Shown here piece after piece: positions 16,466 to 26,751 of a stretch of DNA of 37,868 nucleotides. Positions within the stretch are counted from its first letter, which is position 1. Every line of letters starts with the position of its first letter. Both the position numbers and the translations under genes were made by a program. Source of the stretch: a virus. Below the pieces are notes generated by a model. That model saw only the letters and a program-made list of their open reading frames with translations. It was not told where the DNA came from and did not search any database. The stretch lies in IMG/VR virus record IMGVR_UViG_3300046012_000762, positions 1 through 37,868 of that record. The stretch is one strand, 5' to 3'.

Positions 16466-16510
16466 TGAGCAGGGACGCCCCCCAGACCGGGGGCTCCCTG
16501 TCCACTCTAA

Positions 16511-16549
16511 TCCCCAGTAGCTCAGCCTGGCAGAGCGCATGTTGATCTG
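16511..16549 (+). pseudogene. 5' half of a tRNA gene
   Basis: CCCCAGTAGCTCAGCCTGG and the following bases give an acceptor strand and an intact D arm (GCTC/GAGC), but the anticodon arm does not pair and no 3' half follows; the HNH gene begins there instead. Anticodon cannot be assigned. Confidence 0.6.
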
Positions 16550-16873
16550 GTGGAGCACAATTTCTTGTCAGGCAGAGATGCAGCCAAAGTTACTCTTTGG
16601 CGCCAGCAAACTAAAGCACGACTAGTTGTTGAGCATGGTGGGCGATGTGTGGACTGTGATTTTACGGGACCTCCGTTCATGTTTGACTTTGACCATCGCG
16701 TTCCCGGAGAAAAAGCGTTTGGGTTATCGGGGCGTGGAGTAAGTCGAAGTTACGCGCGCCAGTTAGAGGAGTCCAGGAAATGCGACTTAGTGTGCGCTAA
16801 TTGTCACAGGATGCGAACACACAGGCAGCGATGTCCCGGATGTTTGCACTGCACCACAGACAATCTCATGTAG
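16550..16873 (+). CDS. HNH endonuclease, 107 aa
   Basis: GTG start. CVDC (residues about 34-37), FDFDHR with the candidate catalytic His, and CANCHRMRTHRQRCPGC form the zinc-bound HNH nuclease fold typical of free-standing homing endonucleases. Base composition is clearly more AT-rich than neighbours. It sits between a truncated tRNA and tRNA-Asn, its stop TAG lying inside the tRNA-Asn gene (16871-16873). An independent mobile gene that has disrupted a tRNA is the simplest reading. Confidence 0.8.
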   Translation: MEHNFLSGRDAAKVTLWRQQTKARLVVEHGGRCVDCDFTGPPFMFDFDHRVPGEKAFGLSGRGVSRSYARQLEESRKCDLVCANCHRMRTHRQRCPGCLHCTTDNLM

Positions 16874-16936
16874 CTCAATTGGCAGAGCAAGTGGCCGTTA
16901 ACCACGAGGTTGAAGGTTCGAGTCCTTCCGTGAGAG
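16864..16936 (+). tRNA. tRNA-Asn(GTT)
   Basis: Complete cloverleaf; acceptor TCTCATG/CGTGAGA, anticodon loop CCGTTAA. Its first bases encode the end of the HNH gene. Followed by C and then ATG. Confidence 0.85.
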
Positions 16937-16937
16937 C

Positions 16938-17030
16938 ATGGCACCGCTTGCTGGCCTGCCGGGGTACACTCCGGTTAACAGCAGGCATTATGCCCTCGTA
17001 GCTCAGATGGCCAGAGCAGCTGCCTTGTAA
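16938..17030 (+). CDS. candidate tRNA-coupled micro-ORF, 30 aa
   Basis: ATG one base after the tRNA-Asn discriminator, as for the better-supported genes at 19318, 19549, 19874, 21362 and 22539. Product begins MAPLAGLPGYTPVNSRHY; the stop TAA lies in the anticodon loop of tRNA-Thr. No RBS. Short and unsupported by homology. Confidence 0.3.
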   Translation: MAPLAGLPGYTPVNSRHYALVAQMARAAAL

Positions 17031-17065
17031 CCAGCAGGTCACAGGTTCGAATCCTGCCGGGGGCT
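16992..17065 (+). tRNA. tRNA-Thr(TGT)
   Basis: Acceptor GCCCTCG/CGGGGGC; anticodon loop CTTGTAA; one mismatch at the base of the T stem. Confidence 0.85.
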
Positions 17066-17142
17066 CTTGATCTTTCCTTATTCCGGGATTACAATTCCTT
17101 TACAGGGGTTGCCGTAAACCCCCCGATCTCCGGGGAGCGGGA

Positions 17143-17280
17143 ATGGGAAGTCACGACGGCTGGAAGCTGGTTGCAGCTGCGTACGACAGGCGGCTTGCCG
17201 ATCAGGAGAGGGATATCACCATCGTCCTGGGCGACCAGGTGATGGGAAAAGGGGTGGACACCCCCGTGCAGGTAGGATAG
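17143..17280 (+). CDS. small hypothetical protein, 45 aa
   Basis: ATG with GGGGAG eight nt upstream. Soluble, no recognised motif. It lies between tRNA genes and is followed by a 10-bp hairpin at 17291-17322. Confidence 0.5.
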   Translation: MGSHDGWKLVAAAYDRRLADQERDITIVLGDQVMGKGVDTPVQVG

Positions 17281-17290
17281 TCTAGTACAA

Positions 17291-17322
17291 GACCGGGAGG
17301 ACGTCCACCCGACCTCCCGGTC
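17291..17322 (+). other. spacer hairpin before tRNA-Gln
   Basis: GACCGGGAGG (17291-17300) pairs perfectly with CCTCCCGGTC (17313-17322), ending 5 nt before the next tRNA; no T-run follows. Confidence 0.7.
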
Positions 17323-17327
17323 ACTAA

Positions 17328-17398
17328 TCCGGGATGGTCTAGCGGCATGACACCAGGTTCTGGCCCTGGTAACCGAGGTTCGAATCCTTGTCCCGGAG
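17328..17398 (+). tRNA. tRNA-Gln(CTG)
   Basis: Perfect acceptor TCCGGGA/TCCCGGA; anticodon stem CCAGG/CCTGG with loop TTCTGGC; discriminator G. Confidence 0.9.
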
Positions 17399-17403
17399 CA
17401 CAA

Positions 17404-17480
17404 GCGGGCATAACCCCTCGGTCCTCTAAACCGGTGGAAGGGTAACTGGATTCATGGGGGTTCGAATCCCTCTGCCCGTG
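17404..17480 (+). tRNA. atypical tRNA-like gene, possibly Arg(TCT)
   Basis: Acceptor GCGGGCA/TGCCCGT and T arm are canonical, but no normal D arm can be drawn. A hairpin TCGGT-CCTCTAA-ACCGG would present TCT, with C instead of the invariant U33. Either a decayed gene or an unusual tRNA. Confidence 0.45.
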
Positions 17481-17486
17481 CAATTC

Positions 17487-17548
17487 CTGCTGGCGCGTTA
17501 TACTATTCCTGTAGCCTTTTCGGACTTACAGGAATTTACCGCTAGCAG
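17487..17548 (+). other. stem-capped spacer with nested hairpin
   Basis: CTGCTGGCG (17487-17495) pairs with CGCTAGCAG (17540-17548, one G-U), enclosing ATTCCTGTA/TACAGGAAT. It overlaps a TATACT -10-like box and leads into the gene at 17560. Confidence 0.55.
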
Positions 17549-17559
17549 AAGGACTTCCC

Positions 17560-17988
17560 ATGGCTTTATCAGTAGCCAACCTGAACGTTTACCCGTTCGG
17601 CGGGGCAGCAGTCGTAGACAACGAGTCAACCATCGCTAACTACGCTCTGTCCGCTCACACCTCGGCCGCCACCCTGGTGGCTTTCCCCACCGTAGGCTCC
17701 GGCGGAACCGCAGGTGTGTACACCCCATCCGGTAACATCTTCGTCGCTGCTCTCCTTGACGGCGAGCAGCGAGCGCGCTTCTTCTACACGGACGGTAACT
17801 CCGTGGCGCTGCCGACCATCAAGTACATCGCCCAGACCCAGTACACCGACTCCGTTGGCCTCAAGGGCGGCGGCTTCAAGGTTGCCCTGACCCCCTCGGC
17901 TGCCAACCTGGTGGACGCCACCTCCCCCATGACCTTCTACCTCGACGGTTTCGCTATGCTGATCATTGCGTCCACGCAGTACGGATGA
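17560..17988 (+). CDS. hypothetical protein, 142 aa, possible virion component
   Basis: ATG with AGAAGGAC upstream. Ser/Thr/Ala/Val-rich beta-type sequence with few charges, like phage decoration or minor structural proteins, placed far from the head genes. Not recognised. Followed by a strong hairpin at 18020-18058. Confidence 0.7.
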   Translation: MALSVANLNVYPFGGAAVVDNESTIANYALSAHTSAATLVAFPTVGSGGTAGVYTPSGNIFVAALLDGEQRARFFYTDGNSVALPTIKYIAQTQYTDSVGLKGGGFKVALTPSAANLVDATSPMTFYLDGFAMLIIASTQYG

Positions 17989-18019
17989 TACTGTTCTTCT
18001 AGTGGATGCATGCAGGTCC

Positions 18020-18058
18020 CGGCCCCCCAGCCAGAGCGTCGAACTGGCTGGGGGGCCG
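18020..18058 (+). terminator. strong hairpin, terminator-like without T-run
   Basis: 14-bp perfect stem (18020-18033 with 18045-18058, CGGCCCCCCAGCCA) ending 4 nt before tRNA-Glu. No T-run, so it may be a processing or stability element. Confidence 0.65.
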
Positions 18059-18062
18059 TCTA

Positions 18063-18135
18063 GCCCCCATCGTCTAGCGGCCCAGGACAACGCCCTTTCA
18101 AGGCGTGAACCGGAGTTCAACTCTCCGTGGGGGAG
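18063..18135 (+). tRNA. tRNA-Glu(TTC)
   Basis: Anticodon stem CGCC/GGCG, loop CTTTCAA; T arm CGGAG/CTCCG. First acceptor pair is a G-A mismatch. Confidence 0.8.
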
Positions 18136-18235
18136 CGAAAGGAGAAGGCCCGTCAGGGGCTTCTTGATTTACCCTTCAATATGGAGCTGATTCACATGCC
18201 AGAGACGCTGGCACGGAACACACGAAGGGGCGTAT

Positions 18236-18308
18236 GCCCCTGTAGCCCAATGGCAGAGGCACCGGACTTAAAACCCGCTCAGTGTCGGTTCGAATCCGAC
18301 TAGGGGTA
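18236..18308 (+). tRNA. tRNA-Leu(TAA), short variable arm
   Basis: Loop CTTAAAA; T stem GTCGG/CCGAC; acceptor GCCCCTG/TAGGGGT with end wobbles. Only 73 nt, so it lacks the long variable arm expected of leucine tRNAs. Confidence 0.75.
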
Positions 18309-18354
18309 CGCCCTCAATCTTATCCACAGCCTACACGACCAACTGAAAAGCCTC

Positions 18355-18384
18355 TTGACAGCCCCCGGACCCCGGGTATATGAT
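18355..18384 (+). promoter_or_regulatory. strong promoter inside the tRNA array
   Basis: TTGACA (18355-18360), 18-bp spacer, TATGAT (18379-18384), about 45 nt before the initiator-type tRNA. Confidence 0.85.
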
Positions 18385-18429
18385 GGAGGTACAACAGCAA
18401 GGGAGAGCACGACCAGCTTCCTGATGCGG

Positions 18430-18503
18430 TGCGGAGTGGAGCAGTTCGGTAGCTCGCTGGGCTCATAACCCAGAGGTCACGGGTTCAAATCCCGTCTCCG
18501 CTA
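18430..18503 (+). tRNA. initiator tRNA-fMet(CAT)
   Basis: Anticodon stem CTGGG/CCCAG with the three G-C pairs and an unpaired 1:72 position (T-T), the two hallmarks of initiator tRNA; loop CTCATAA. Confidence 0.85.
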
Positions 18504-18583
18504 CTGGGTCCTAGCACAGTTCAGGACTTACAACTTCATAGATCGCCCGGCCCGAGGCGATTCACTCTAAATATCGGGCTCTA

Positions 18584-18656
18584 GGGGCCTTAGCTCAGCT
18601 GGTAGAGCGCTTGCCTGGCAGGCATGAGGTCGTGGGTTCGAACCCCGCAGGCTCCA
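18584..18656 (+). tRNA. tRNA-Ala(GGC)
   Basis: Acceptor GGGGCCT/AGGCTCC with the G3-U70 alanine identity pair; loop CTGGCAG. Confidence 0.9.
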
Positions 18657-18666
18657 CAAGTGTGAG

Positions 18667-18698
18667 TCAACCGGCACACTCTAATCCCTACCGGTTGA
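18667..18698 (+). other. spacer hairpin
   Basis: TCAACCGG (18667-18674) with CCGGTTGA (18691-18698); ends 4 nt before the next tRNA. Confidence 0.65.
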
Positions 18699-18702
18699 GC
18701 CA

Positions 18703-18776
18703 GGGCCGCTAGCTCCAATTGGCAGAGCATCTGTTTTGCAGTCAGAGGGTTCGGGGTTCGAGTCCCCGGTGGTCCA
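18703..18776 (+). tRNA. tRNA-Ala(TGC)
   Basis: Acceptor GGGCCGC/GTGGTCC again with G3-U70; loop TTTGCAG; discriminator A. Confidence 0.85.
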
Positions 18777-18788
18777 CGGGAGCGGAGG

Positions 18789-19034
18789 ATGGTTGTGCAC
18801 ATCCCTCACTTGCCTTCCGGCTTTAGCCGGTCACCGAAAAGGTGGCGTATTGAAAAATGGATATGGACAGGGATGACAGTGGCGTGGATCGCCCTGTATT
18901 TCCTGAATCGCCCATTATTCGACGCGCTGTCTATTCTGTACGTGATTTGCATCAGTCACTGGGCACTGGTACTGGGAGCCTCCAGTACCGAAACTGCCTC
19001 AGAGGCACGGGATAGCGCAAATGGGTCCAGCTAA
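18789..19034 (+). CDS. small membrane protein, 81 aa
   Basis: Two hydrophobic helices (about residues 23-40 and 43-65) after a basic N-terminus. GGAGG touches ATG 18789, so GTG 18795 (spacing 6) may be the true start. Its stop codon directly abuts tRNA-Val. Unknown function. Confidence 0.6.
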   Translation: MVVHIPHLPSGFSRSPKRWRIEKWIWTGMTVAWIALYFLNRPLFDALSILYVICISHWALVLGASSTETASEARDSANGSS

Positions 19035-19106
19035 GCACCTATAGCTCAGCGGGAGAGCGTCGCTCTTACAAAGCGAGGGTCCGGGGTTCGAATCCCTGTG
19101 GGTGTA
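19035..19106 (+). tRNA. tRNA-Val(TAC)
   Basis: Anticodon stem TCGCT/AGCGA, loop CTTACAA; begins at the base after the preceding stop codon. Confidence 0.9.
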
Positions 19107-19108
19107 CT

Positions 19109-19182
19109 GAGGATGTAGCTCAACTGGTTAGAGCGCCTGGTTGTGGTCCAGGTGGTTGTGGGTTCGAGTCCCATCGTCCTCC
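19109..19182 (+). tRNA. tRNA-His(GTG)
   Basis: Loop TTGTGGT on stem CCTGG/CCAGG; C73 as expected for histidine, but the base before position 1 is T, so G-1 is not encoded. Confidence 0.9.
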
Positions 19183-19183
19183 C

Positions 19184-19240
19184 TGATCCCTGGACTGCGC
19201 GTGGGTTCACCCCCATCAGCTGACGCGCACCCAGGGATCA
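19184..19240 (+). other. stem-capped spacer
   Basis: TGATCCCTGG (19184-19193) and CCAGGGATCA (19231-19240) close it; TGCGCGT/ACGCGCA pair inside. Starts one C after tRNA-His, ends 4 nt before tRNA-Trp. Confidence 0.75.
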
Positions 19241-19244
19241 TCTA

Positions 19245-19316
19245 ATCAGAGTGGCCTGACGGGGAAGCAGCGGTCTCCAAAACCGTGAAATGAGAGTTCG
19301 AATCTCTCCTCTGGTG
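19245..19316 (+). tRNA. tRNA-Trp(CCA)
   Basis: Anticodon stem CGGT/ACCG with loop CTCCAAA; G73, the tryptophan discriminator. Confidence 0.85.
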
Positions 19317-19317
19317 C

Positions 19318-19473
19318 GTGGCTAAAAAAGGTCCCGTGCATTATTTTTGCCGGAAAAAGCCCAGAGGACACTGGTATCTTCAATCCGAATCGGGTAATAA
19401 CCAGCTGTGGCGGTGCAATTCATGCAGCCAGGCGCATAGCACAAAGAAAAATCACAAAGGCAATCTTCGCTAA
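19318..19473 (+). CDS. tRNA-coupled zinc miniprotein, 51 aa
   Basis: GTG begins one base (C) after the tRNA-Trp discriminator and the stop TAA ends on the base before tRNA-Arg(CCG), so the gene exactly fills the spacer. No RBS exists because tRNA sequence lies upstream. Basic product with FCRKK and CNSCSQAH, a likely zinc site. Confidence 0.6.
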   Translation: MAKKGPVHYFCRKKPRGHWYLQSESGNNQLWRCNSCSQAHSTKKNHKGNLR

Positions 19474-19547
19474 GTCTCTGTAGCTCAGCTGGATAGAGCG
19501 CCGGCCTCCGGAGCCGGGGGTAGCAGGTTCGAGTCCTGTCAGAGACA
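19474..19547 (+). tRNA. tRNA-Arg(CCG)
   Basis: Acceptor GTCTCTG/CAGAGAC; stem CCGGC/GCCGG with loop CTCCGGA. Confidence 0.9.
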
Positions 19548-19548
19548 C

Positions 19549-19701
19549 ATGAGTAACCAGACAGAGCTGGCCCGGCTGCGCAGAGCCCATCTGACGCCCA
19601 AGATCCAGCGCAAGATCGCTAAACTGGAAAGGCAGATTACTGCTCAGCAGAACCAGGCTGCCAGGAACGCGCGAAGCAACGTCAAGAGGTTCGGGAATTA
19701 G
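19549..19701 (+). CDS. tRNA-coupled basic helical protein, 50 aa
   Basis: ATG one base after the tRNA-Arg(CCG) discriminator, no RBS. Product is a basic helix (LARLRRAHLTPKIQRKIAKL, then QQNQAARNARSNVKRFG). Family unknown; nucleic-acid binding is plausible. Confidence 0.6.
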   Translation: MSNQTELARLRRAHLTPKIQRKIAKLERQITAQQNQAARNARSNVKRFGN

Positions 19702-19720
19702 CCGGCATTACTGAACATAA

Positions 19721-19798
19721 GCGCCTGTAGCTCAGGGGATAGAGCGCCCGCCTCCTAAGCGGGGACAAAATGCGGGGGTTCGATTCCCTCCAGGCGCA
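19721..19798 (+). tRNA. tRNA-Arg(CCT)
   Basis: Acceptor GCGCCTG/CAGGCGC; anticodon loop CTCCTAA; somewhat enlarged variable loop. Confidence 0.85.
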
Positions 19799-19799
19799 C

Positions 19800-19872
19800 G
19801 TCCGTATGGCTGAATGGCCCAGGCTGCCGGCTGCAACCCGGTATTACGCAGGTTCGATTCCTGTTACGGACT
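19800..19872 (+). tRNA. tRNA-Cys(GCA)
   Basis: Acceptor GTCCGTA/TACGGAC; loop CTGCAAC; T73. Starts 1 nt after the previous tRNA. Confidence 0.9.
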
Positions 19873-19873
19873 C

Positions 19874-19969
19874 ATGGCTAAATGGGGCAAATGCCAGCGA
19901 TGCCGCCGGTTCCGCAAGCTGGTGTACCTGAGCTGGTGCCTCGGGTGCAGGAAGTGGGTTGCAAAATAG
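19874..19969 (+). CDS. tRNA-coupled zinc-ribbon micropeptide, 31 aa
   Basis: ATG one base after the tRNA-Cys discriminator, no RBS. Contains two CxxC knuckles (CQRC and CLGC, 16 residues between) in a basic chain, a minimal zinc ribbon. Confidence 0.6.
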   Translation: MAKWGKCQRCRRFRKLVYLSWCLGCRKWVAK

Positions 19970-19972
19970 GGG

Positions 19973-20002
19973 TTGACGCCCCGTCGGCCCAGCTGGTAAA
20001 CT
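19973..20002 (+). promoter_or_regulatory. promoter
   Basis: TTGACG (19973-19978), 18-bp spacer, TAAACT (19997-20002); same CTGGTAAACTAC context as the promoter at 6754. Confidence 0.75.
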
Positions 20003-20035
20003 ACTGGTACAGCAGCAGAACACGGAGCTTCGCAG

Positions 20036-20170
20036 ATGCTCGGGAAAAAATGCACCCAGTGCAAGGGCCGTAAAACTGTCAGCCAGGTGATCATCATAAG
20101 CAGCCGGCTGTCGTACACCAGGGTTCAGTGCCCGAGATGTGAGGGTTCCGGTAAGGAACCAAAGAAGTAA
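20036..20170 (+). CDS. DnaJ-type zinc-finger miniprotein, 44 aa
   Basis: ATG with GGAG about 9 nt upstream, in its own transcription unit. CTQCKGRK and CPRCEGSG are DnaJ-like CxxCxGxG knuckles, as in the protein at 4832. Basic. Ends 6 nt before tRNA-Gly. Confidence 0.65.
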   Translation: MLGKKCTQCKGRKTVSQVIIISSRLSYTRVQCPRCEGSGKEPKK

Positions 20171-20176
20171 ATATAC

Positions 20177-20250
20177 GTGGCAGTAGCTCAGCCGGTTAGA
20201 GCACCACCTTGCCAAGGTGGGGGTCGTGGGTTCGAATCCCGTTTGCCACT
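20177..20250 (+). tRNA. tRNA-Gly(GCC)
   Basis: Stem CCACC/GGTGG, loop TTGCCAA; acceptor GTGGCAG/TTGCCAC. Confidence 0.9.
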
Positions 20251-20251
20251 C

Positions 20252-20370
20252 TGGTGGGAGATACCAGTGTCAGAGCTGGTCTGCCCAACGCAGCAGGAGA
20301 CCGCATAATTTCCGTGAAAGCGGGGGTGTTACGGGACCTGGGGGCGGTAGTTTACTGAGAATACCCACCA
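20252..20370 (+). other. stem-capped spacer, 119 nt
   Basis: TGGTGGG (20252-20258) pairs with CCCACCA (20364-20370). Shares GCAGCAGGAGACC with the spacer at 22308-22464. No gene inside. Confidence 0.65.
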
Positions 20371-20373
20371 TAA

Positions 20374-20445
20374 GCGGATGTAATTCAGTGGCAGAATGCC
20401 TGCTTCCCAAGCAGGTCGTCCCGGGTTCGAATCCCGATATCCGCT
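20374..20445 (+). tRNA. tRNA-Gly(CCC)
   Basis: Stem CCTGC/GCAGG, loop TTCCCAA; acceptor GCGGATG/TATCCGC. Confidence 0.9.
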
Positions 20446-20523
20446 CTGGCCGGATCTGGTTTATCCCCAGGTTCTCATGTCCGCAGGGATAGCGGCCCGG
20501 GAACCTGTCAGGAACGGCCTATT

Positions 20524-20591
20524 GCACCCGTAGTTCATCAGGCAGAACGCCCTTAACTGGGAGAGGTGGGTTCGAGTCCCATCGGGTTGCG
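20524..20591 (+). tRNA. degenerate tRNA-like gene, possibly Val(AAC)
   Basis: D arm and T arm are intact, but the acceptor needs a bulge (GCACCCG against CGGGTTGC) and the anticodon arm is about 5 nt short (CCC-TTAACT-GGG). Probably decaying; the anticodon is uncertain. Confidence 0.45.
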
Positions 20592-20605
20592 CTTCAAGTA
20601 AATAC

Positions 20606-20681
20606 GCTCCGGTCGTCTAGTTTGGCTCAGGACACTGCCCTCTCAAGGCAGAGATCACGGGTTCGAATCCCGTTCGGAGTA
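20606..20681 (+). tRNA. tRNA-Glu(CTC)
   Basis: Stem CTGCC/GGCAG, loop CTCTCAA; acceptor GCTCCGG/TCGGAGT. Confidence 0.9.
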
Positions 20682-20762
20682 CTCCCCCGTTCCTCAGGGA
20701 GCCTGGTCGTATTGGGCTTCGGCCTGAACGGGACCAGTCCAGGGTCAGACCTGGTGGGGGAG
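20682..20762 (+). other. stem-capped spacer
   Basis: CTCCCCC (20682-20688) with GGGGGAG (20756-20762); inner CTGGTC (20703) with GACCAG (20732). Followed to 20880 by smaller hairpins (GGCTGT/ACAGCC near 20769) and no gene. Confidence 0.65.
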
Positions 20763-20880
20763 CACGGGCTGTGGTGCACAGCCGCAGTAGGAGCGGTTAC
20801 TGTAACAGCCGTTACCGGAATGATCACCCGGTTTCCTGAAGTGTGAAGGGCCGGCCGGTCTGGATCACATGCACCGCCTA

Positions 20881-20954
20881 GGTCTCTTAGCTCAGCTGGT
20901 TAGAGCACCGCCCTGTCAAGGCGGGGGTCGCCGGTTCAAGTCCGGTAGGGACCG
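20881..20954 (+). tRNA. tRNA-Asp(GTC)
   Basis: Stem CCGCC/GGCGG, loop CTGTCAA; acceptor GGTCTCT/AGGGACC; G73. Confidence 0.9.
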
Positions 20955-20981
20955 CAAGCAGTATCTGCTAGGATAGTTCCC

Positions 20982-21080
20982 ATGAGAGGAGAGGATCGCA
21001 TGAAACGCTACGGACGTTACGGATATAAGCGATTTACCATGCGCCTCTCTAGCTCAATTGGCAGAGCTGCGGACTTTTAA
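20982..21080 (+). CDS. candidate micro-ORF overlapping tRNA-Lys, 32 aa
   Basis: A TAGGAT box (20969-20974) lies 7 nt before ATG 20982, fitting the leaderless pattern; an internal ATG 21000 has an RBS (AGAGGAGAG). Basic product (MKRYGRYGYKRF) whose stop is within tRNA-Lys. Weak case. Confidence 0.35.
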   Translation: MRGEDRMKRYGRYGYKRFTMRLSSSIGRAADF

Positions 21081-21115
21081 TCCGTGGGTTCAGGGTTCGA
21101 TCCCCTGGGGAGGTA
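21043..21115 (+). tRNA. tRNA-Lys(TTT)
   Basis: Loop CTTTTAA; T stem CAGGG/CCCTG; acceptor GCCTCTC/GGGAGGT. Its 3' strand also forms the 5' arm of a terminator. Confidence 0.9.
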
Positions 21116-21139
21116 CTGACAGGCAGTACCTCCTTTTTT
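21109..21139 (+). terminator. terminator overlapping the tRNA-Lys 3' end
   Basis: GGAGGTACTG (21109-21118) pairs with CAGTACCTCC (21124-21133), then TTTTTT. The left arm is the tRNA acceptor strand and CCA position, so folding of the tRNA and of the terminator exclude each other. Confidence 0.8.
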
Positions 21140-21149
21140 AATTCCATAC

Positions 21150-21223
21150 GGCTGCTTAGCTCAGTAGGTACGAGCGCTCGCCTGAAAAGCGAGAGGTCCC
21201 CCGTTCGATCCGGGGAGTAGCCA
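21150..21223 (+). tRNA. tRNA-Phe(GAA)
   Basis: Stem CTCGC/GCGAG, loop CTGAAAA; acceptor GGCTGCT/AGTAGCC. Confidence 0.9.
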
Positions 21224-21224
21224 C

Positions 21225-21283
21225 GAGGGGGAGAAATACACAAACGGCACGCGCCCCTGGGTATGCGCCGGTTTCTTCCCCTC
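21225..21283 (+). other. stem-capped spacer, 59 nt
   Basis: GAGGGGGAGAAA (21225-21236) pairs with TTTCTTCCCCTC (21272-21283; one G-U). Starts one C after tRNA-Phe, ends 5 nt before tRNA-Gly. Confidence 0.75.
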
Positions 21284-21288
21284 ACCAC

Positions 21289-21360
21289 GTGGGTGTAGCT
21301 CAACGGCTAGAGCTGGTGCCTTCCAAGTACCAGATGGGGGTTCGACTCCCCTCGCCCGCT
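21289..21360 (+). tRNA. tRNA-Gly(TCC)
   Basis: Stem GGTGC/GTACC, loop CTTCCAA; acceptor GTGGGTG/CGCCCGC; T73. Confidence 0.9.
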
Positions 21361-21361
21361 C

Positions 21362-21523
21362 GTGAGCGATAACTTCCTGAACATGGACTCCCTGGACGGT
21401 AAATGGAAGTGCCCCGGCTGTTTCCTGTGGGCCTGCCTGCACACCGAGGAGGACCCCTGCGGCCAGCTGGGGTGCCAGTGCCATCTCGGGTACAGGGTTG
21501 ACACCGGACCGCCCAGCCCGTAA
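21362..21523 (+). CDS. tRNA-coupled Cys-rich protein, 53 aa
   Basis: GTG one base after the tRNA-Gly(TCC) discriminator, no RBS. Six cysteines (CPGC, ACLH, DPCG, CQCH) suggest zinc binding. Not recognised. Confidence 0.6.
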   Translation: MSDNFLNMDSLDGKWKCPGCFLWACLHTEEDPCGQLGCQCHLGYRVDTGPPSP

Positions 21524-21548
21524 GATAGAAGGCATAACAGAAAAGTAC

Positions 21549-21623
21549 GCCTCTGTAGCTCAGGCCGGTCAGAGCAGCTGACTCTTAATCAGTGGGTCCT
21601 AGGTTCGAATCCTAGTAGGGGCA
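21549..21623 (+). tRNA. tRNA-Lys(CTT)
   Basis: Stem GCTGA/TCAGT, loop CTCTTAA; acceptor GCCTCTG/TAGGGGC. Confidence 0.9.
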
Positions 21624-21652
21624 CGTAAAATCCCCGTCAAGAAGGAGAATCT

Positions 21653-22189
21653 ATGCGGGTCATTACCCGGCTGACTGTTGTGCTTGCCGGTGCGGCAGCT
21701 GTTCTCTCGGTTAGTGCGGGCGCCCTCGCCGGCGTCCACCCCAGCACCTCCAACCAGTACTGCTTTGCCAGCGCCCAGGGGTGCATCCGCATCCAGAACA
21801 ACGGTGGCAACGGCTCTGCGGTTGTTGTCGGCGCGACCGATATCAACGGCCCGGCGGAGAACGCTTCGTTCAACCCAACCACCACCTACAACTTCCACGG
21901 GCAGACGTACTCGGCGGGCACGGTGCAGTTCACCGGCCACACCAACGAGTGCCTGGCGCTGGATAGCCAGCTGGTGCTGGCTAAGACGGCGGTGTGCAAT
22001 GCCACGGGGACGATCTGGGTGCCGGTGAATATGAACGGCGCGATCCAGTGGTTGTCACGGCCGGCTACGGAGGCCAACGGCGCTGATTCGTATCTGGAGG
22101 CCCCGGTGGCTGCTGATGGCACCCGGTTCCGGATCGCCGGTAACGGCCAGGGGTTCGAGCGGTTTAAGTCGTGCAGCGGTAACTGCTAG
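21653..22189 (+). CDS. secreted protein with signal peptide, 178 aa
   Basis: ATG with AGAAGGAGA upstream. Residues 1-27 are a signal peptide (MRVITR, hydrophobic core, SAGALAG). The mature part is uncharged and beta-rich with cysteine pairs (QYCFASAQGC, ECLALDS, KTAVCNATG, KSCSGNC) and reminds me of ricin-type beta-trefoil or similar secreted Streptomyces proteins; not a firm match. A secreted product inside a tRNA array suggests a lysogeny- or infection-time modifier of the cell surface, by inference only. Confidence 0.75.
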   Translation: MRVITRLTVVLAGAAAVLSVSAGALAGVHPSTSNQYCFASAQGCIRIQNNGGNGSAVVVGATDINGPAENASFNPTTTYNFHGQTYSAGTVQFTGHTNECLALDSQLVLAKTAVCNATGTIWVPVNMNGAIQWLSRPATEANGADSYLEAPVAADGTRFRIAGNGQGFERFKSCSGNC

Positions 22190-22226
22190 AAGAACGCACA
22201 ACTGAATAACAACTGAATAGCACCAT

Positions 22227-22307
22227 GCCGGGTTGGCCGAGCGGACGATGGCGCCTGACTGTAAATCAGGTCTGAAAGGCACGGGGGTTCGAATCCCTCA
22301 CCCGGTA
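22227..22307 (+). tRNA. tRNA-Tyr(GTA)
   Basis: Stem CCTGA/TCAGG, loop CTGTAAA; long variable arm; acceptor GCCGGGT/ACCCGGT. Confidence 0.9.
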
Positions 22308-22464
22308 CGCAGCTAGGCGGTAAAGCCAGGCAGCAGGAGACCCCGAACCACGGGTCAAGCACTGTGACTGGACTAGTATGCCCGCTGACCCGTGTCGGCG
22401 GGTACCGGGATTGAGTCTCCCCTTCCATAAGGGGGACGAGGATTCCCCGGGTCACACGGGACCA
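22308..22464 (+). other. structured spacer with alternative pairings
   Basis: No gene. CACGGGTC (about 22362) can pair with GACCCGTG (about 22387), while the flanks CCCGC/GCGGG or a third copy in GGGTCACACGGG near 22449 offer competing helices; GGAGAC/GTCTCC can enclose part of it. Confidence 0.5.
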
Positions 22465-22537
22465 GCACCCGTAGCTCAACGGACAGAGCACCTGATTACG
22501 GATCAGGTGGCTGGGGGTTCGAGTCCCTCCGGGTGCA
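22465..22537 (+). tRNA. tRNA-Arg(ACG)
   Basis: Stem CCTGA/TCAGG, loop TTACGGA; acceptor GCACCCG/CGGGTGC. Confidence 0.9.
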
Positions 22538-22538
22538 C

Positions 22539-22907
22539 GTGATAATCAGGTACGGGATGACCCTGTCAGATGTCGCCACCCAGGCCAGGGAGTTCCTGGA
22601 TATGAACGGGTGGGCCCAGGGTTACCTGTACGTGACCAACGGGCACGACTCCGGCCGGCTCGACCTGGCCGGCGCGCTGATGCTGGCTACTTCCGGGAAC
22701 TACGTCTGGGACAGCCAGGACCGGGAGCAAGTACAGGTGCTCCGTGCAGCAGCCGGCAGGCTGGTGCGCAAGCAGCCGTCCCTGGCCAAGATCAGGTCTA
22801 CTGATCGCGCCCGGGACCTGCGGGTCATCTCGGCCTGGAACGACGAGCCGGGGCGCACCAAGGAGCAGGTGCAGGAATTCCTGCACGAACTGGCAAAGGA
22901 GGCGTAG
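22539..22907 (+). CDS. tRNA-coupled hypothetical protein, 122 aa
   Basis: GTG 22539 is one base after the tRNA-Arg(ACG) discriminator; the in-frame GTG 22533 lies inside the tRNA. An alternative is ATG 22557. Helical protein (DVATQAREFLDMNGWAQGYL, EQVQEFLHELAKEA), family unknown. Longest of the tRNA-coupled genes, so its coding status is the most secure. TAGTG overlap with the next gene. Confidence 0.75.
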   Translation: MIIRYGMTLSDVATQAREFLDMNGWAQGYLYVTNGHDSGRLDLAGALMLATSGNYVWDSQDREQVQVLRAAAGRLVRKQPSLAKIRSTDRARDLRVISAWNDEPGRTKEQVQEFLHELAKEA

Positions 22908-23242
22908 TGGCTAAGGGCACCACCAGCGAGGCCAGGAAGAACGCAGCGAAGGCACGCTGGGTTTCCGGCAAGACCGCACGATCCCAGCGTGCAGCGGCTC
23001 AGCAGGCCGCTGCCCAGCGCAACAGGGCAGCAGGGACCTCACCCTGGAAGGAAGCCTGCGCAGCGCGCTACGCCCGTCACGAGGCGGCTAAGCGCGAGGG
23101 ACGGTGGGAGCCGGCAGTGCGCTCTCCCCTGGGCCTGATCCAGCGCAGTGATGGCCAGCGCTCGTGGTATGAGGATCCCGGGGTCAGGGAGCGTTCGCAT
23201 GTCACGGGGATCCCGGTAAATGCCTTGCGTGGCAGGGCTTAG
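22907..23242 (+). CDS. basic DNA-binding-like protein, 111 aa
   Basis: GTG overlapping the previous stop. N-terminal 45 residues are Ala/Arg/Lys-rich (KARWVSGKTARSQRAAAQQA), typical of nucleic-acid-coating tails; the rest is polar and Trp-containing. Family unknown. Confidence 0.7.
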   Translation: MAKGTTSEARKNAAKARWVSGKTARSQRAAAQQAAAQRNRAAGTSPWKEACAARYARHEAAKREGRWEPAVRSPLGLIQRSDGQRSWYEDPGVRERSHVTGIPVNALRGRA

Positions 23243-23443
23243 CCGGCTAGTGTAGTTCCTGTTCCGGTGAGGGGTTCATAACCGGAACAGGCGAGCCGGC
23301 TGGGCCCGGGCTCCCCGGGTTGAGTCCCCTTCCCGGGTGAGAAGCCAGCTGGCGAGGGCAAAGAAGGGACGGGCTGCGCAGGATTCCTTCCTGGGCCGGT
23401 GCACCCCCCGTCACCGGCCCCTTGCAGCCCGTCCCTTCTTTGC
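23241..23443 (+). other. highly structured noncoding region
   Basis: AGCCGGCT at 23241-23248 and 23294-23301 close a hairpin whose core is an 11-bp stem CCTGTTCCGGT/ACCGGAACAGG (23258-23291). A second domain is closed by a perfect 20-bp stem (23358-23377 with 23424-23443), enclosing GGGCCGGTG/CACCGGCCC. No gene; likely a structured RNA or a massive terminator. Confidence 0.75.
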
Positions 23444-23449
23444 TACAAT
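23422..23449 (+). promoter_or_regulatory. possible promoter for the Leu/Ser tRNAs
   Basis: TTGCAG (23422-23427), 16-bp spacer, TACAAT (23444-23449), partly inside the 20-bp stem. Confidence 0.45.
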
Positions 23450-23464
23450 TACAGCATAATATGC

Positions 23465-23549
23465 AGGGGTATGGCGAAATGGCAGACGCGCAGCCTTGAG
23501 GTGGCTGTGTCCTTTACCGGACGTGAGGGTTCAAATCCCTCTATCCCTA
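23465..23549 (+). tRNA. tRNA-Leu(GAG)
   Basis: Stem CAGCC/GGCTG, loop TTGAGGT; long variable arm; acceptor AGGGGTA/TATCCCT. Confidence 0.85.
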
Positions 23550-23550
23550 C

Positions 23551-23635
23551 GGCCTGATGGCGGAATTAGGCAGACGCGCTGGATTCAGAATCCAGTGTCC
23601 GCAAGGACGTGAGGGTTCGATTCCCTCTCGGGCTA
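23551..23635 (+). tRNA. tRNA-Leu(CAG)
   Basis: Stem CTGGA/TCCAG, loop TTCAGAA; variable arm GTCC/GGAC. One base after the previous tRNA. Confidence 0.9.
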
Positions 23636-23658
23636 CGAAGGACCTGATCAGTCCTTTA

Positions 23659-23732
23659 CCGGCAGGCAAAGCGAATCAAGATGGAGCTGCAAGCAGTCCT
23701 AGTTCCCTTGCTGACTCAAGGGTGCCTGTCGG
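23659..23732 (+). other. stem-capped spacer
   Basis: CCGGCAGGCA (23659-23668) with TGCCTGTCGG (23723-23732, one G-U); inner CCCTTG/CAAGGG. A small AAGGAC/GTCCTT hairpin (23638-23656) precedes it. Confidence 0.65.
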
Positions 23733-23737
23733 AACAC

Positions 23738-23827
23738 GGAGCGATGGCACGAGTGGCTTATGGCGCCATCCTGCTAAGGTGGTGGCCGATTAATGTCGGC
23801 CCGAGGGTTCGAATCCCTCTCGCTCCT
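23738..23827 (+). tRNA. tRNA-Ser(GCT)
   Basis: Stem CCATC/GGTGG, loop CTGCTAA; long variable arm; acceptor GGAGCGA/TCGCTCC. Confidence 0.9.
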
Positions 23828-23832
23828 CGCAA

Positions 23833-23915
23833 GGAAGATAAACCTGTTGGGTACGGGCTCCGTCTGGAAAGCGGATGGGCGGGAAACCGCTGAGGTTCGA
23901 GTCCTCTGTTTTCCG
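23833..23915 (+). tRNA. tRNA-Ser(GGA)
   Basis: Stem TCCGT/GCGGA, loop CTGGAAA; long variable arm; G73. Confidence 0.85.
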
Positions 23916-23918
23916 CAA

Positions 23919-24011
23919 GGAAGGTATGCCTCGCTGGCTAGGGGCACACGGTCCTGAAAACCGTTACTGGGGGCTAGTACCCTCCAGGGGGTTCGACACC
24001 TCTGCCTTCCG
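23919..24011 (+). tRNA. tRNA-Ser(TGA)
   Basis: Stem ACGGT/ACCGT, loop CCTGAAA; long variable arm; acceptor GGAAGGT/GCCTTCC. Confidence 0.85.
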
Positions 24012-24028
24012 CACAGTAAACTGAATAC

Positions 24029-24101
24029 GCCCTCTTAGCTCAGACGGAAGAGCGTCTGCATGGTAAGCAGGAGGTCTGGGGTTCGATTCCCCAAGGGGGC
24101 T
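24029..24101 (+). tRNA. tRNA-Thr(GGT)
   Basis: Stem TCTGC/GCAGG, loop ATGGTAA; acceptor GCCCTCT/AGGGGGC. Confidence 0.9.
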
Positions 24102-24102
24102 C

Positions 24103-24220
24103 GCAGGTATCTGCACAGCGGTACTGAGTGGCAGTAAGCACTGATCAGCCTCTGCCGTCAGGGACAAATACAGCCGGATAGTTGAGTCCGCCGGCCACTG
24201 CCCTGGCAAACAGTACCTGC
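24103..24220 (+). other. stem-capped spacer, 118 nt
   Basis: GCAGGTA (24103-24109) with TACCTGC (24214-24220); inner CAGGG/CCCTG. Starts one C after tRNA-Thr(GGT), ends 2 nt before tRNA-Thr(CGT). Confidence 0.7.
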
Positions 24221-24222
24221 AC

Positions 24223-24296
24223 GCCGGTATAGCTCTTAACGGCAGAGCAGCCCTTTCGTAAGGGGAAGGTTGCAGGTTCGAATCCTGTTACCGGCT
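24223..24296 (+). tRNA. tRNA-Thr(CGT)
   Basis: Loop TTCGTAA between CCCT and GGGG; acceptor GCCGGTA/TACCGGC; T73. Confidence 0.85.
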
Positions 24297-24297
24297 C

Positions 24298-24420
24298 GGG
24301 ATGATTGCCCAGGAGTTGGTTGGGCGCGAGGAGTGCACTCCGGACGCCACTGGGTTGCGGTGCAAGACCGCAGAAGGGGTGAGGGCTCATTAGCCGGGCT
24401 CTCGTGTAAGCAGTCATCCT
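24298..24420 (+). other. stem-capped spacer, 123 nt, multi-helix
   Basis: GGGATGATTGC (24298-24308) pairs with GCAGTCATCCT (24410-24420, G-U allowed). Inside: GGAGT/ACTCC, TGCGGT/ACCGCA and GGCT/AGCC hairpins. A compact multi-arm RNA. Confidence 0.7.
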
Positions 24421-24425
24421 GACTC

Positions 24426-24455
24426 TTGACAGTAAATCACTGAAGGTAGTAGACT
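24426..24455 (+). promoter_or_regulatory. promoter of the Pro/Ile tRNA block
   Basis: TTGACA (24426-24431), 18-bp spacer, TAGACT (24450-24455); start expected 3-4 nt before tRNA-Pro(TGG). Confidence 0.8.
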
Positions 24456-24465
24456 GGCAGTACAT

Positions 24466-24541
24466 CGGGATGTAGCTCAGTTTGGTCTAGAGCACCGGCT
24501 TTGGGAGCCGGGGGTCCGGGGTTCGAATCCCTGTATCCCGA
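24466..24541 (+). tRNA. tRNA-Pro(TGG)
   Basis: Stem CCGGC/GCCGG, loop TTTGGGA; acceptor CGGGATG/TATCCCG. Confidence 0.9.
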
Positions 24542-24542
24542 C

Positions 24543-24667
24543 GAAGGTAAGCGGGCCACGCTGGTCTGTACAGAGGGTCGTGACGGATACCTCGGGGGTG
24601 GTGATACCCAAGGCCATTGTCAAGGCGGCAACCCAGCGGGTCAGATGGGACTTCTCTGCTTACCTTC
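24543..24667 (+). other. stem-capped spacer, 125 nt
   Basis: GAAGGTAAGC (24543-24552) pairs perfectly with GCTTACCTTC (24658-24667). Begins one C after tRNA-Pro(TGG), ends 4 nt before tRNA-Pro(CGG). Inner GGG/CCC and GGCC-type helices; no gene. Confidence 0.75.
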
Positions 24668-24671
24668 ATAA

Positions 24672-24745
24672 CTGGGTATGGCGCAGTTTGGCAGCGCGCG
24701 TGCTTCGGGAGCACGAGGTCGCAGGTTCAAATCCTGCTATCCAGA
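24672..24745 (+). tRNA. tRNA-Pro(CGG)
   Basis: Stem CGTGC/GCACG, loop TTCGGGA; acceptor CTGGGTA/TATCCAG. Confidence 0.9.
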
Positions 24746-24746
24746 C

Positions 24747-24816
24747 GAATGGGGACATGTGTAATAGGTGATCCTAGGCACGTATCCGAAAGCACGGGTT
24801 CGTCCCATCCCCATTC
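24747..24816 (+). other. stem-capped spacer, 70 nt, tRNA-sized
   Basis: GAATGGGGA (24747-24755) pairs perfectly with TCCCCATTC (24808-24816). A GGGTTCGTCCC stretch recalls a T arm, so it could be a remodelled tRNA, but no anticodon arm is visible. Confidence 0.7.
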
Positions 24817-24820
24817 ACCA

Positions 24821-24895
24821 CGGGATATGGCGCAGCTTGGCTAGCGCGCTGGTCTGGGGGACCAGAGGTCGGCGGTTCGAATCCGTCTATCCCGA
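24821..24895 (+). tRNA. tRNA-Pro(GGG)
   Basis: Stem CTGGT/ACCAG, loop CTGGGGG; acceptor CGGGATA/TATCCCG. Confidence 0.9.
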
Positions 24896-24896
24896 C

Positions 24897-24938
24897 TGGT
24901 GGTACGCTGATGTCTTGGTCCACGGACGCGTACCACCA
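24897..24938 (+). other. stem-capped spacer, 42 nt
   Basis: TGGTGGTACGC (24897-24907) pairs perfectly with GCGTACCACCA (24928-24938). One C after tRNA-Pro(GGG), 4 nt before tRNA-Ile. Confidence 0.8.
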
Positions 24939-24942
24939 CTAA

Positions 24943-25016
24943 GGGCCTGTAGCTCAGTCGGTTAGAGCGCCACACTGATAATGTGGAGGCCGGAGGTTCA
25001 ATCCCTCCTGGGCCTA
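24943..25016 (+). tRNA. tRNA-Ile(GAT)
   Basis: Stem CCACA/TGTGG, loop CTGATAA; T stem GGAGG/CCTCC. Confidence 0.9.
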
Positions 25017-25079
25017 CGTACCAACCCCTAATGCGCGCCTCGGCGCGTCCTCAGCAGAGGATGCTGGGGGAGATGATGC

Positions 25080-25271
25080 ATGTGGATAACCTGCCCGTAC
25101 TGTGTCAGCAGGGAAAAGGCGCGCATAGCTAAGAAGTACAGCAAGCGCCGTTGCAGGGAATGCAGCAAGGTGCACGGGATCGAAGGCGTCCCTGAGGGCG
25201 TCATGTTCAGCACTGGCCGGCAGTACCGGCTGTGTTTCCTGCACCATCTGGAGCACAAGGAGGATTCGTGA
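25080..25271 (+). CDS. zinc-finger protein, 63 aa
   Basis: ATG with GGGGGAGATG upstream. CPYC (residues 5-8) and CREC (25-28) form a zinc knuckle in a basic context; the C-terminal half has LCFLHHLEH. GTGA overlap with the next gene. Function unknown. Confidence 0.7.
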   Translation: MWITCPYCVSREKARIAKKYSKRRCRECSKVHGIEGVPEGVMFSTGRQYRLCFLHHLEHKEDS

Positions 25272-25675
25272 GCGACGAGCGCGACACCATCCACCTGAAC
25301 GTGGCAGAGCCGGTGCTCGGCGTGCAGGTTGGTTCCCGGCCGCTCCGGGTCCACCCCCTCAGCGAATGCGAGGGACGGGATCTTCCCTGTGTTATCCACA
25401 GCCCCTCAGACCATCACATGGCCTCCTGGCCGCTGAACTGGCGTGCCGACACCCAGGTGATGGAGCGCATCTGCGAGCACGGCACAGGCCACCCTGACCC
25501 CGATCATATGGCCTACGTGCGCTCCCTGACCCCGGAGCACGACTGCATTGATGATCTGCTGATGATCCACCCGGAACACCGTGCCTCCATCAAGGACGTC
25601 AGCTCTTACGGCCGGCTGTGCAAGTACCCGCACCTGGAGTGGCAGGGCGTGCACGGCTGCGACCGGTGCTGCTGA
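25268..25675 (+). CDS. Cys/His-rich protein, paralogue B, 135 aa
   Basis: GTGA overlap start with AAGGAGG upstream. CVIHSPSDHHM..W...W....VMERICEHGTGHPDPDH and the C-terminal GCDRCC match the protein at 12752-13270, so these are two copies of one unnamed domain, probably zinc-binding. Coupled to the next gene (TGATG). Confidence 0.7.
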   Translation: MSDERDTIHLNVAEPVLGVQVGSRPLRVHPLSECEGRDLPCVIHSPSDHHMASWPLNWRADTQVMERICEHGTGHPDPDHMAYVRSLTPEHDCIDDLLMIHPEHRASIKDVSSYGRLCKYPHLEWQGVHGCDRCC

Positions 25676-25866
25676 TGAACGACCCGGGTTTCGATCGGTT
25701 CGAGGTCATCAGCCACTGCAAAGACCCTGATGCGATACTCACACACGAACGCCCCGGCCGGGTGCTGATTGCGGTTGGCGTGAAAATTGAATTGTCCGTT
25801 CAGGACGACGGGCGCACGCTGAAGGTGTTCCTGACGGACAGGAACAAGCCGGAAGAGGTTTCGTGA
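25675..25866 (+). CDS. hypothetical protein, 63 aa
   Basis: TGATG overlap start. Small alpha/beta protein (RVLIAVGVKIELSVQDDGRT). Unknown; coupled on both sides. Confidence 0.65.
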   Translation: MNDPGFDRFEVISHCKDPDAILTHERPGRVLIAVGVKIELSVQDDGRTLKVFLTDRNKPEEVS

Positions 25867-26021
25867 ACCCCATCCCGCATAAGCACAGGTTCAGGAAAAA
25901 GATCGGCGAGGGAATTATCCCGGTGAAGAACAAGCCGGGAGAGGTTGACCGGGTTACCGTGTGGCAGTGCGACGAGCCGGAGTGCACGACGACCAAGCGC
26001 AAGACAAAACGTGTAAAATAG
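25863..26021 (+). CDS. basic small protein, 52 aa
   Basis: GTGA overlap start. Lys/Arg-rich with a single CDEPEC pair near the end. Ends 5 nt before tRNA-Leu(CAA); a TAAAAT box in its last codons may serve that tRNA. Confidence 0.6.
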   Translation: MNPIPHKHRFRKKIGEGIIPVKNKPGEVDRVTVWQCDEPECTTTKRKTKRVK

Positions 26022-26026
26022 CAGAT

Positions 26027-26099
26027 GGGTGAGTACGCCAACGGCAGAGCGGGCCGGTTCAAAACCGTCCGGTTGAGGGTTCGAATCCCTCCCCACCCA
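26027..26099 (+). tRNA. tRNA-Leu(CAA), short variable arm
   Basis: Loop TTCAAAA; T stem GAGGG/CCCTC; acceptor GGGTGAG/CCCACCC with one mismatch. 73 nt, without the long variable arm of leucine tRNAs. Confidence 0.75.
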
Positions 26100-26100
26100 C

Positions 26101-26177
26101 AGCGGGGTAGCTTAGCTGGTTAAAGCACCGGACTCATAATCCGAAGATCGTGGGTTCAAATCCCACCCTCGCCACCA
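26101..26177 (+). tRNA. tRNA-Met or Ile2 (CAT), CCA encoded
   Basis: Loop CTCATAA on CCGGA/TCCGA; no GGG/CCC stem, so elongator Met or lysidine-type Ile. The gene encodes its own CCA (26175-26177), unlike all others here. Position 1:72 reads A-C. Confidence 0.8.
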
Positions 26178-26178
26178 A

Positions 26179-26211
26179 CCCCGGAGCATACTCGTATGCT
26201 CCGGGGTATTT
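26179..26211 (+). terminator. terminator closing the tRNA array
   Basis: 12-bp perfect stem (26179-26190 with 26195-26206, CCCCGGAGCATA), loop CTCG, then TATTTT. Confidence 0.85.
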
Positions 26212-26258
26212 TAATGTAATCTGTAATAGTAGTCTGTCATACTGAGAGGAACCGGCGG

Positions 26259-26564
26259 GTGGATGCAGAGCTGATTCAGGTTTTCGTCACCAATGCGGGT
26301 TTTGCCGGCGCAGTTATAGTAGCCATAATCACAGGGCTGTTATACCCGAGAACATATGTCAGGGACCTGAAAGAGGAAAACAAACGATTACGGGAATCCC
26401 TGGCGCTGGAACGTGCCCGGGGGGATGCGGCAGTCCAGGCAACAAACACAACCAACCAGATCCTGGGTGCCCTTCATGAAATCGCCAGTGAACGTTCTTT
26501 CAGTCCAGACCATTCAGCCGGGGAAATCAGGAATGCCCTGCGGAGCAGAGCCTATGAAGATTAA
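26259..26564 (+). CDS. single-pass membrane protein with coiled coil, 101 aa
   Basis: GTG with GAGAGGA at 26244. Transmembrane helix at residues about 10-29 (NAGFAGAVIVAIITGLLYP) followed by a charged coiled coil (RDLKEENKRLRESLALERAR). Position next to a probable holin suggests a lysis-cassette protein (holin-like or spanin-like); inference from context. Confidence 0.7.
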   Translation: MDAELIQVFVTNAGFAGAVIVAIITGLLYPRTYVRDLKEENKRLRESLALERARGDAAVQATNTTNQILGALHEIASERSFSPDHSAGEIRNALRSRAYED

Positions 26565-26751
26565 GCTGATCTGGGGGGAACGGAAAGATGCACGCAAGCG
26601 GTTAAAGGAAGCGGAGCATGAGGTAAATATCAGCCGGGAGAAGTACAATGAATGGCGCGCTGATACAGCTGCTCCCTTGCACACTTTACAGGAGCAGAAC
26701 CACTTTGCTGAGATATTAGCTGAATCATTGATTAAGGGGTACAGCAAGTAA
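26554..26751 (+). CDS. small charged helical protein, 65 aa (lysis-cassette type)
   Basis: ATG within the end of the previous gene. Layout K-rich helix, then EWRADTAAPLHTLQEQNHFAEILAE, resembles the short coiled-coil proteins that accompany holins in many actinophages (DUF7620-like, from memory). TAATG overlap with the next gene. Confidence 0.65.
   Translation: MKIKLIWGERKDARKRLKEAEHEVNISREKYNEWRADTAAPLHTLQEQNHFAEILAESLIKGYSK

Follow-up and report, generated by a model that had tools for sequence, protein, structure and literature searches.

We propose that the spacers of a phage transfer RNA (tRNA) array are organised around a single nucleotide boundary. The sequence analysed here in its entirety, which we call the window, is a virus fragment of 37,868 bases from IMG/VR (IMGVR_UViG_3300046012_000762) that carries terminase and portal genes together with an array of 37 tRNA genes. 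Several segments between these tRNAs are closed by a stem, and others carry an open reading frame (ORF), that begins exactly at nucleotide 75 of the preceding tRNA. We consider it about an even bet that the array represents tRNA punctuation based on a cut between nucleotides 74 and 75, in which the closed spacers serve mainly as folding insulators, a reading suggested by the anatomy of the array and the literature on the likely hosts. The terminase is 52–53% identical to those of the Streptomyces phages BRock, LuckySocke, Alone3, GiJojo and pSt2308, whose tRNA arrays occupy the same place as that of the window. Many neighbouring tRNAs of the window are separated by 0–4 nt and have no spacer.

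16864-26177, plus strand: array of 37 tRNA genes (ARAGORN), C74 encoded in 37/37, CCA only in the last tRNA

Spacers closed from the tRNA 3′ end

An earlier note, made from the sequence of the window, had described nine terminal stems in tRNA spacers, each starting directly after the same single C, and had taken their constant geometry as a sign of selection on structure. All nine stems are present. Seven close their spacer on both sides; these start on the base directly 3′ of the C (offset 0) and leave 2–5 nt to the next tRNA, while the elements at 20683-20762 and 24298-24420 are anchored on the 5′ side only. Stem lengths in the following list include G-U pairs.

19184-19240, plus strand: closed spacer His-Trp; 10-bp stem from nucleotide 75, 3′ strand ending 4 nt before the next tRNA
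20252-20370, plus strand: closed spacer Gly-Gly; 7-bp stem, 3′ strand ending 3 nt before the next tRNA
20683-20762, plus strand: 5′-anchored closed element 3′ of tRNA-Glu; 118 nt to the next tRNA, anchored-helix p=0.039
21225-21283, plus strand: closed spacer Phe-Gly; 13-bp stem, 3′ strand ending 5 nt before the next tRNA
24103-24220, plus strand: closed spacer Thr-Thr; 8-bp stem by helix scan, 3′ strand ending 2 nt before the next tRNA
24298-24420, plus strand: 5′-anchored closed element 3′ of tRNA-Thr; 45 nt to tRNA-Pro with a promoter-like site between, p=0.001
24543-24667, plus strand: closed spacer Pro-Pro; 13-bp stem, 3′ strand ending 4 nt before the next tRNA
24747-24816, plus strand: closed spacer Pro-Pro; 9-bp stem, 3′ strand ending 4 nt before the next tRNA
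24897-24938, plus strand: closed spacer Pro-Ile; 11-bp stem, 3′ strand ending 4 nt before the next tRNA

This geometry is not due to chance. Compared with dinucleotide shuffles, 7 of 25 window spacers reach p≤0.01; the earlier note had suggested such a comparison, and shuffled spacers do not match the real closing stems. Selection on structure is further supported by an exchange control in which the 5′ end of one spacer was paired with the 3′ end of another: a stem with a score of at least 18 at offset 0 occurs in 7/24 own pairs and in 1/552 mixed pairs. No stem of this score starts at offsets 1–7 in any window spacer tested. In minimum free energy (MFE) folds the first pair lies exactly at nucleotide 75 in 13 of the 18 non-coding spacers, against 31.6% in shuffles (binomial p=5e-4). 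When the spacer at 24103-24220 is folded alone, the MFE structure favours an alternative pairing of its 5′ end over the closing stem.

The same geometry might lack a function and simply follow from a compact genome of GC-rich composition, since GC-rich spacers fold readily and even shuffled ones pair first at offset 0 at the rate just given. The exchange control, the offset specificity and the covarying closing stem found in relatives (see below) make this explanation improbable. Intrinsic terminators were also considered and rejected: no closed spacer consists of a hairpin with a U tract, and the hairpins at 21107 and 26178, which do have a U tail, are separate from them.

The encoded C74 and reading frames at nucleotide 75

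The single C before the stems corresponds to position 74 of the tRNA, where CCA begins; the closing stems therefore begin at nucleotide 75. This C is encoded by every tRNA gene of the window, and C75 is absent from 36 of the 37. Related phages encode C74 in 105/105 and 199/201 tRNAs, and it is present in 40/40 and 55/56 sampled tRNAs of Actinomycetota. A haloarchaeon has it in only 4/15, which indicates that the tRNA caller does not impose it. The geometry described in the earlier note is confirmed and is more marked than it had claimed; what the note overlooked is that the C is part of the tRNA and that gene-bearing spacers share the rule, with leaderless starts.

RNA-seq places the cut of most CCA-encoding tRNAs of Streptomyces coelicolor between C74 and C75 (PMC4681348). 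In Propionibacterium acnes, cuts inside CCA always fall between the Cs and are made by an unidentified enzyme, and cleavage may also occur 3′ of CCA-less tRNAs (PMC3848588). Judged by sequence position, the start of the closing stems coincides with this 74/75 cut mapped in Actinobacteria. The window shares with both systems the nucleotide boundary, the likely phylum of the host and the presence of C74 in nearly all tRNA genes. It differs in that the cleavages were mapped mainly on CCA-encoding host tRNAs, whereas 36/37 window tRNAs encode only C74. A role of the stems as guides for RNase P and a 3′ endonuclease is plausible, given that they start at this cut.

Five ORFs of the window also begin at this boundary and are candidates for leaderless translation.

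19318-19473, plus strand: putative leaderless ORF of 51 aa; GTG at nucleotide 75 of tRNA-Trp, TAA flush with tRNA-Arg, the whole spacer being filled
19549-19701, plus strand: putative leaderless ORF of 50 aa; ATG at nucleotide 75 of tRNA-Arg
19874-19969, plus strand: putative leaderless ORF of 31 aa with CxxC motifs; ATG at nucleotide 75 of tRNA-Cys
21362-21523, plus strand: putative leaderless ORF of 53 aa, Cys-rich; GTG at nucleotide 75 of tRNA-Gly
22539-22907, plus strand: putative leaderless ORF of 122 aa, DUF6197; GTG at nucleotide 75 of tRNA-Arg

These five starts at offset 0 stand against an average of 0.29 per other offset (Poisson P=1.4e-5), and related phages have nine against 2.1 (P=3e-4). 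The five window ORFs have no Shine-Dalgarno motif within 20 nt upstream, where the sequence is tRNA, and their codon-position GC contents (0.57/0.45/0.77) resemble those of the phage structural genes (0.61/0.41/0.75). From nucleotide 75 of tRNA-Lys(ttt), two related contigs encode similar small proteins that contain Cys; three phages have a Pro-rich peptide of 26 aa at nucleotide 75 of tRNA-Val, and L066 has a release-factor-like protein with an RF-1 domain whose ATG lies exactly at nucleotide 75 of tRNA-Leu(caa). Searches of an open-access library turned up no earlier description of leaderless genes directly adjoining tRNAs in phages, which does not prove that there is none.

From these features we infer cuts in the window transcript, leaderless translation and insulation as the reason for retention of the stems. 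The array would be transcribed as a polycistronic RNA in which host RNase P cuts the 5′ end of each tRNA and an endonuclease cuts each 3′ end at the 74/75 bond or at most 1 nt from it, so that every inter-tRNA unit would start at nucleotide 75. Coding units, with AUG or GUG exactly at this position, would become leaderless mRNAs once the tRNAs are excised. Non-coding units would mostly begin with a helix, which in seven spacers is predicted to close the whole unit and to leave only C74 and 2–5 nt unpaired between the neighbouring acceptor stems. Such a stem would act mainly as an insulator against invasion of the acceptor stems by spacer RNA, and would hold both cleavage sites at clean junctions between single- and double-stranded RNA. 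With confidence a little short of even, we extend this to the proposal that actinobacterial tRNA 3′ ends are generally cut after an encoded C74, and that this phage and its relatives built their punctuation on that cut, so that each excision would yield, from nucleotide 75 onwards, an RNA that is either self-closed or a leaderless mRNA.

The arrangement resembles mitochondrial tRNA punctuation, where leaderless mRNAs are set free as the tRNAs are excised. There too, tRNAs stand among short genes whose start codon coincides with or adjoins the cut at the tRNA 3′ end; the ORF at 19318-19473, like genes there, fills the space between two tRNAs. The window differs in belonging to a bacterial virus, in placing the boundary after C74 and not after the discriminator, and in having non-coding units with predicted closing stems and promoter-like internal sites. 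If the proposal is correct, it would bring a mitochondria-style punctuation to a bacterial virus, make the unexplained C74/C75 cut of Streptomyces and Propionibacterium directly testable, and account for the retention of one or both Cs of CCA in actinobacterial tRNA genes. It would also suggest that small genes in phage tRNA arrays are mis-annotated because annotators look for ribosome-binding sites, and closed spacers would offer a simple, exchangeable design for multi-tRNA transcripts.

Proposed insulation and alternative roles of the closed spacers

Insulation was examined by partition-function folding of tRNA-spacer-tRNA segments with real and shuffled spacers. Relative to shuffles, closed spacers raise acceptor-stem pairing in silico by 0.50 for the upstream and 0.36 for the downstream tRNA, against +0.09 and -0.01 for spacers that are not closed, which supports the insulator role put forward in the earlier note. 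When spacers were swapped, acceptor pairing was 0.70 with the own spacer, 0.54 with another closed spacer, 0.30 with a non-closing one and 0.61 with none. In this folding model closed spacers are neutral, largely through their shape and not through their sequence. The idea that the stems prevent strand swapping between isoacceptors, which follows from one version of the insulator hypothesis and does not define it strictly, was abandoned: closed spacers are frequent between isoacceptor neighbours in the window (4/6 vs 4/18), but over all arrays this enrichment is gone (17/91 vs 24/134, Fisher p=1.0).

Several points weigh against punctuation at the 74/75 bond with insulating spacers. The general view of RNase Z places its cut after nucleotide 73. 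The pairing of 0.61 without any spacer means that closed spacers are folding-neutral and not clearly beneficial, the spacer at 20252-20373 has no insulating effect in silico and, as shuffling destroys the stem, the effect is partly mechanical. The ORF rule was spotted after inspection of the data and not predicted beforehand, and it is not seen in Microbacterium phages (1 vs 0.3–0.4). Closing stems of relatives start at offsets 0–3 and not strictly at 0. No homologues of the window spacers were reached by scans with five window proteins besides the terminase (15432-16214, 14533-15165, 22533-22904, 26751-27116 and 12229-12813); the closest terminase, at 80%, is that of L005, a contig that begins 300 nt upstream of this gene. 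Finally, for the CCA-less tRNAs of S. coelicolor, cuts are given only as "within a few nucleotides" (PMC4681348).

Closed ends would withstand exonucleases, and the closed spacers could instead be stable small RNAs released from the array to act in trans. Extra stable RNAs are known from the tRNA cluster of phage T4, the full-length spacers have MFE z-scores of -1.8 to -5.4, and a conserved RNA of three helices, all of which covary, lies beside tRNA-Phe in Borockvirus-like phages. This RNA is without match in the window, and neither an Rfam family (gathering and permissive scans) nor a common fold was detected in the window spacers. Once the closing stem is removed, interiors are close to shuffles in 7/9 cases (|z|<1; the other two have z of -1.4 and -2.5), which places the signal in the stem itself. 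We therefore regard a small-RNA role as unlikely; for the family of stable small RNAs suggested in the earlier note, no shared sequence was noted either, and that suggestion is not supported in the window.

Cleavage of the stems by RNase III or another double-strand-specific enzyme would also free the tRNAs, and the stems are suitably located between them; several form long hairpins, with 10+7 bp at 19184-19240 and, at 21225-21283, 13 bp and a second helix further in. RNase III, however, prefers roughly two helical turns, and most stems, at 7–13 bp, fall below this. Another activity would in any case have to separate the many tRNAs that lie 0–4 nt apart, and we rate this possibility slightly lower still than a by-product of composition.

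Very little probability attaches to an origin of the spacers from tRNA genes, or other mobile elements, that decayed but kept an acceptor-like stem. The array does contain at least one degenerate-looking tRNA missed by ARAGORN (20526-20587, inside the Gly-Glu spacer, 30.1 bits with Rfam), and tRNA-like inserts are visible by inspection in the Pro-Phe spacer of relatives. A permissive Rfam scan (E≤5), however, matched none of the nine closed spacers to a tRNA, which largely refutes the idea; the stems reach 13 bp and not 7, and decay would not hold a stem exactly at nucleotide 75.

Least probable of all is that the spacers are self-cleaving ribozymes of the hepatitis delta virus (HDV)-like theta type, which mature tRNA 3′ ends in gut phages and cleave at just this position directly 3′ of the tRNA (PMC10879173). 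The likeness lies in a structured RNA immediately 3′ of phage tRNAs that mostly lack an encoded CCA. Theta ribozymes belong to phages of gut Bacteroidota, whereas the window is related to Streptomyces phages, and in place of a nested double pseudoknot, for which a spacer of 42 nt would be too small, the window has a closing stem that pairs the first with the last bases, unlike HDV P1. The Rfam scan gave no match to an HDV-like or other ribozyme at E≤5, the presence of a theta-specific model in Rfam 15 not being confirmed.

Related arrays and other elements of the window

When related and Microbacterium phages are taken together, 20 of their 228 spacers reach p<0.01 and 37 reach p<0.05, where 2 and 11 are expected, although related sequences are not independent. 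The Borockvirus-like arrays (BRock, LuckySocke, Alone3, GiJojo and pSt2308) resemble that of the window in lying upstream of a related terminase, in encoding a partial CCA and in having some closing stems and some ORFs at nucleotide 75. They have fewer closed spacers, their stem starts vary by 0–3 nt, and they include a Ro-like gene within the array and an adjoining RNA ligase gene; the scanned proteins of the window include neither. Four testable spacers of the Gilsonvirus SparkleGoddess and five of the Vibrio phage Achelous include no closed one; the Vibrio tRNAs have a fully encoded CCA.

The spacer between tRNA-Pro and tRNA-Phe of the Borockvirus-like phages contains the three-helix RNA mentioned above, of about 76 nt.

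L012:793-869, L014:2870-2946, L068:12074-12151, L070:10080-10150 and homologues: three-helix RNA upstream of tRNA-Phe, with strong covariation

In its closing helix 5 of 8 pairs have changed on both sides, and for the structure as a whole the covariation score is 0.40, compared with 0.18 after shuffling and at most 0.095 when slid. A weak match (E=0.83) at the syntenic position of L069 adds a copy not noticed before. Where other sequence has been inserted towards tRNA-Pro, the RNA still adjoins tRNA-Phe; unlike the spacers of the window, it is therefore part of the 5′ flank of tRNA-Phe.

Seven related and Microbacterium tRNA-rich phages (L012, L013, L014, L015, L016, L020 and L021) encode, in or near the array, an RNA ligase and a Ro-like RNA-binding protein, suggesting phage tRNA surveillance or repair. 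The Ro-bearing actinophages Frankenweenie, Kradal, VanLee and Neville have few tRNAs. No Ro match appeared among the window proteins scanned, which represent part of the ORFs of a contig that is itself a fragment; a Y RNA (YrlA) was considered and rejected, as model matches overlap only real tRNAs and are below gathering.

Promoter-like sites are more frequent than expected around the array, with 11 against 3.3 in 16500-26500, and three TTGACA sites lie inside it. Terminator-like hairpins occur within and after the array.

18355-18384, plus strand: promoter-like TTGACA-18-TATGAT, inside the array
21498-21526, plus strand: promoter-like TTGACA-17-TAAGAT, inside the array
24426-24455, plus strand: promoter-like TTGACA-18-TAGACT, just upstream of tRNA-Pro(tgg), separating 24298-24420 from this tRNA
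21107-21135, plus strand: terminator-like hairpin; the 3′ acceptor strand of tRNA-Lys(ttt) serves as its 5′ arm
26178-26207, plus strand: terminator-like hairpin after the last tRNA

Since the arm of the hairpin at 21107-21135 is the acceptor strand of tRNA-Lys(ttt), terminator and mature tRNA would compete for one strand.

Three further observations concern individual positions in the array. A tRNA-like sequence directly 3′ of tRNA-Gln (17404-17479) scores 27.7 bits with the tRNA-Sec model and has a T-arm and a long variable region. The tRNA-Leu at 18236-18309, with anticodon UAA, is only 74 nt long and is without the long variable arm expected of a tRNA-Leu. Upstream of tRNA-Leu(gag), at 23358-23443, lies a perfect 20-bp inverted repeat, GCAAAGAAGGGACGGGCTGC, with a loop of 46 nt.

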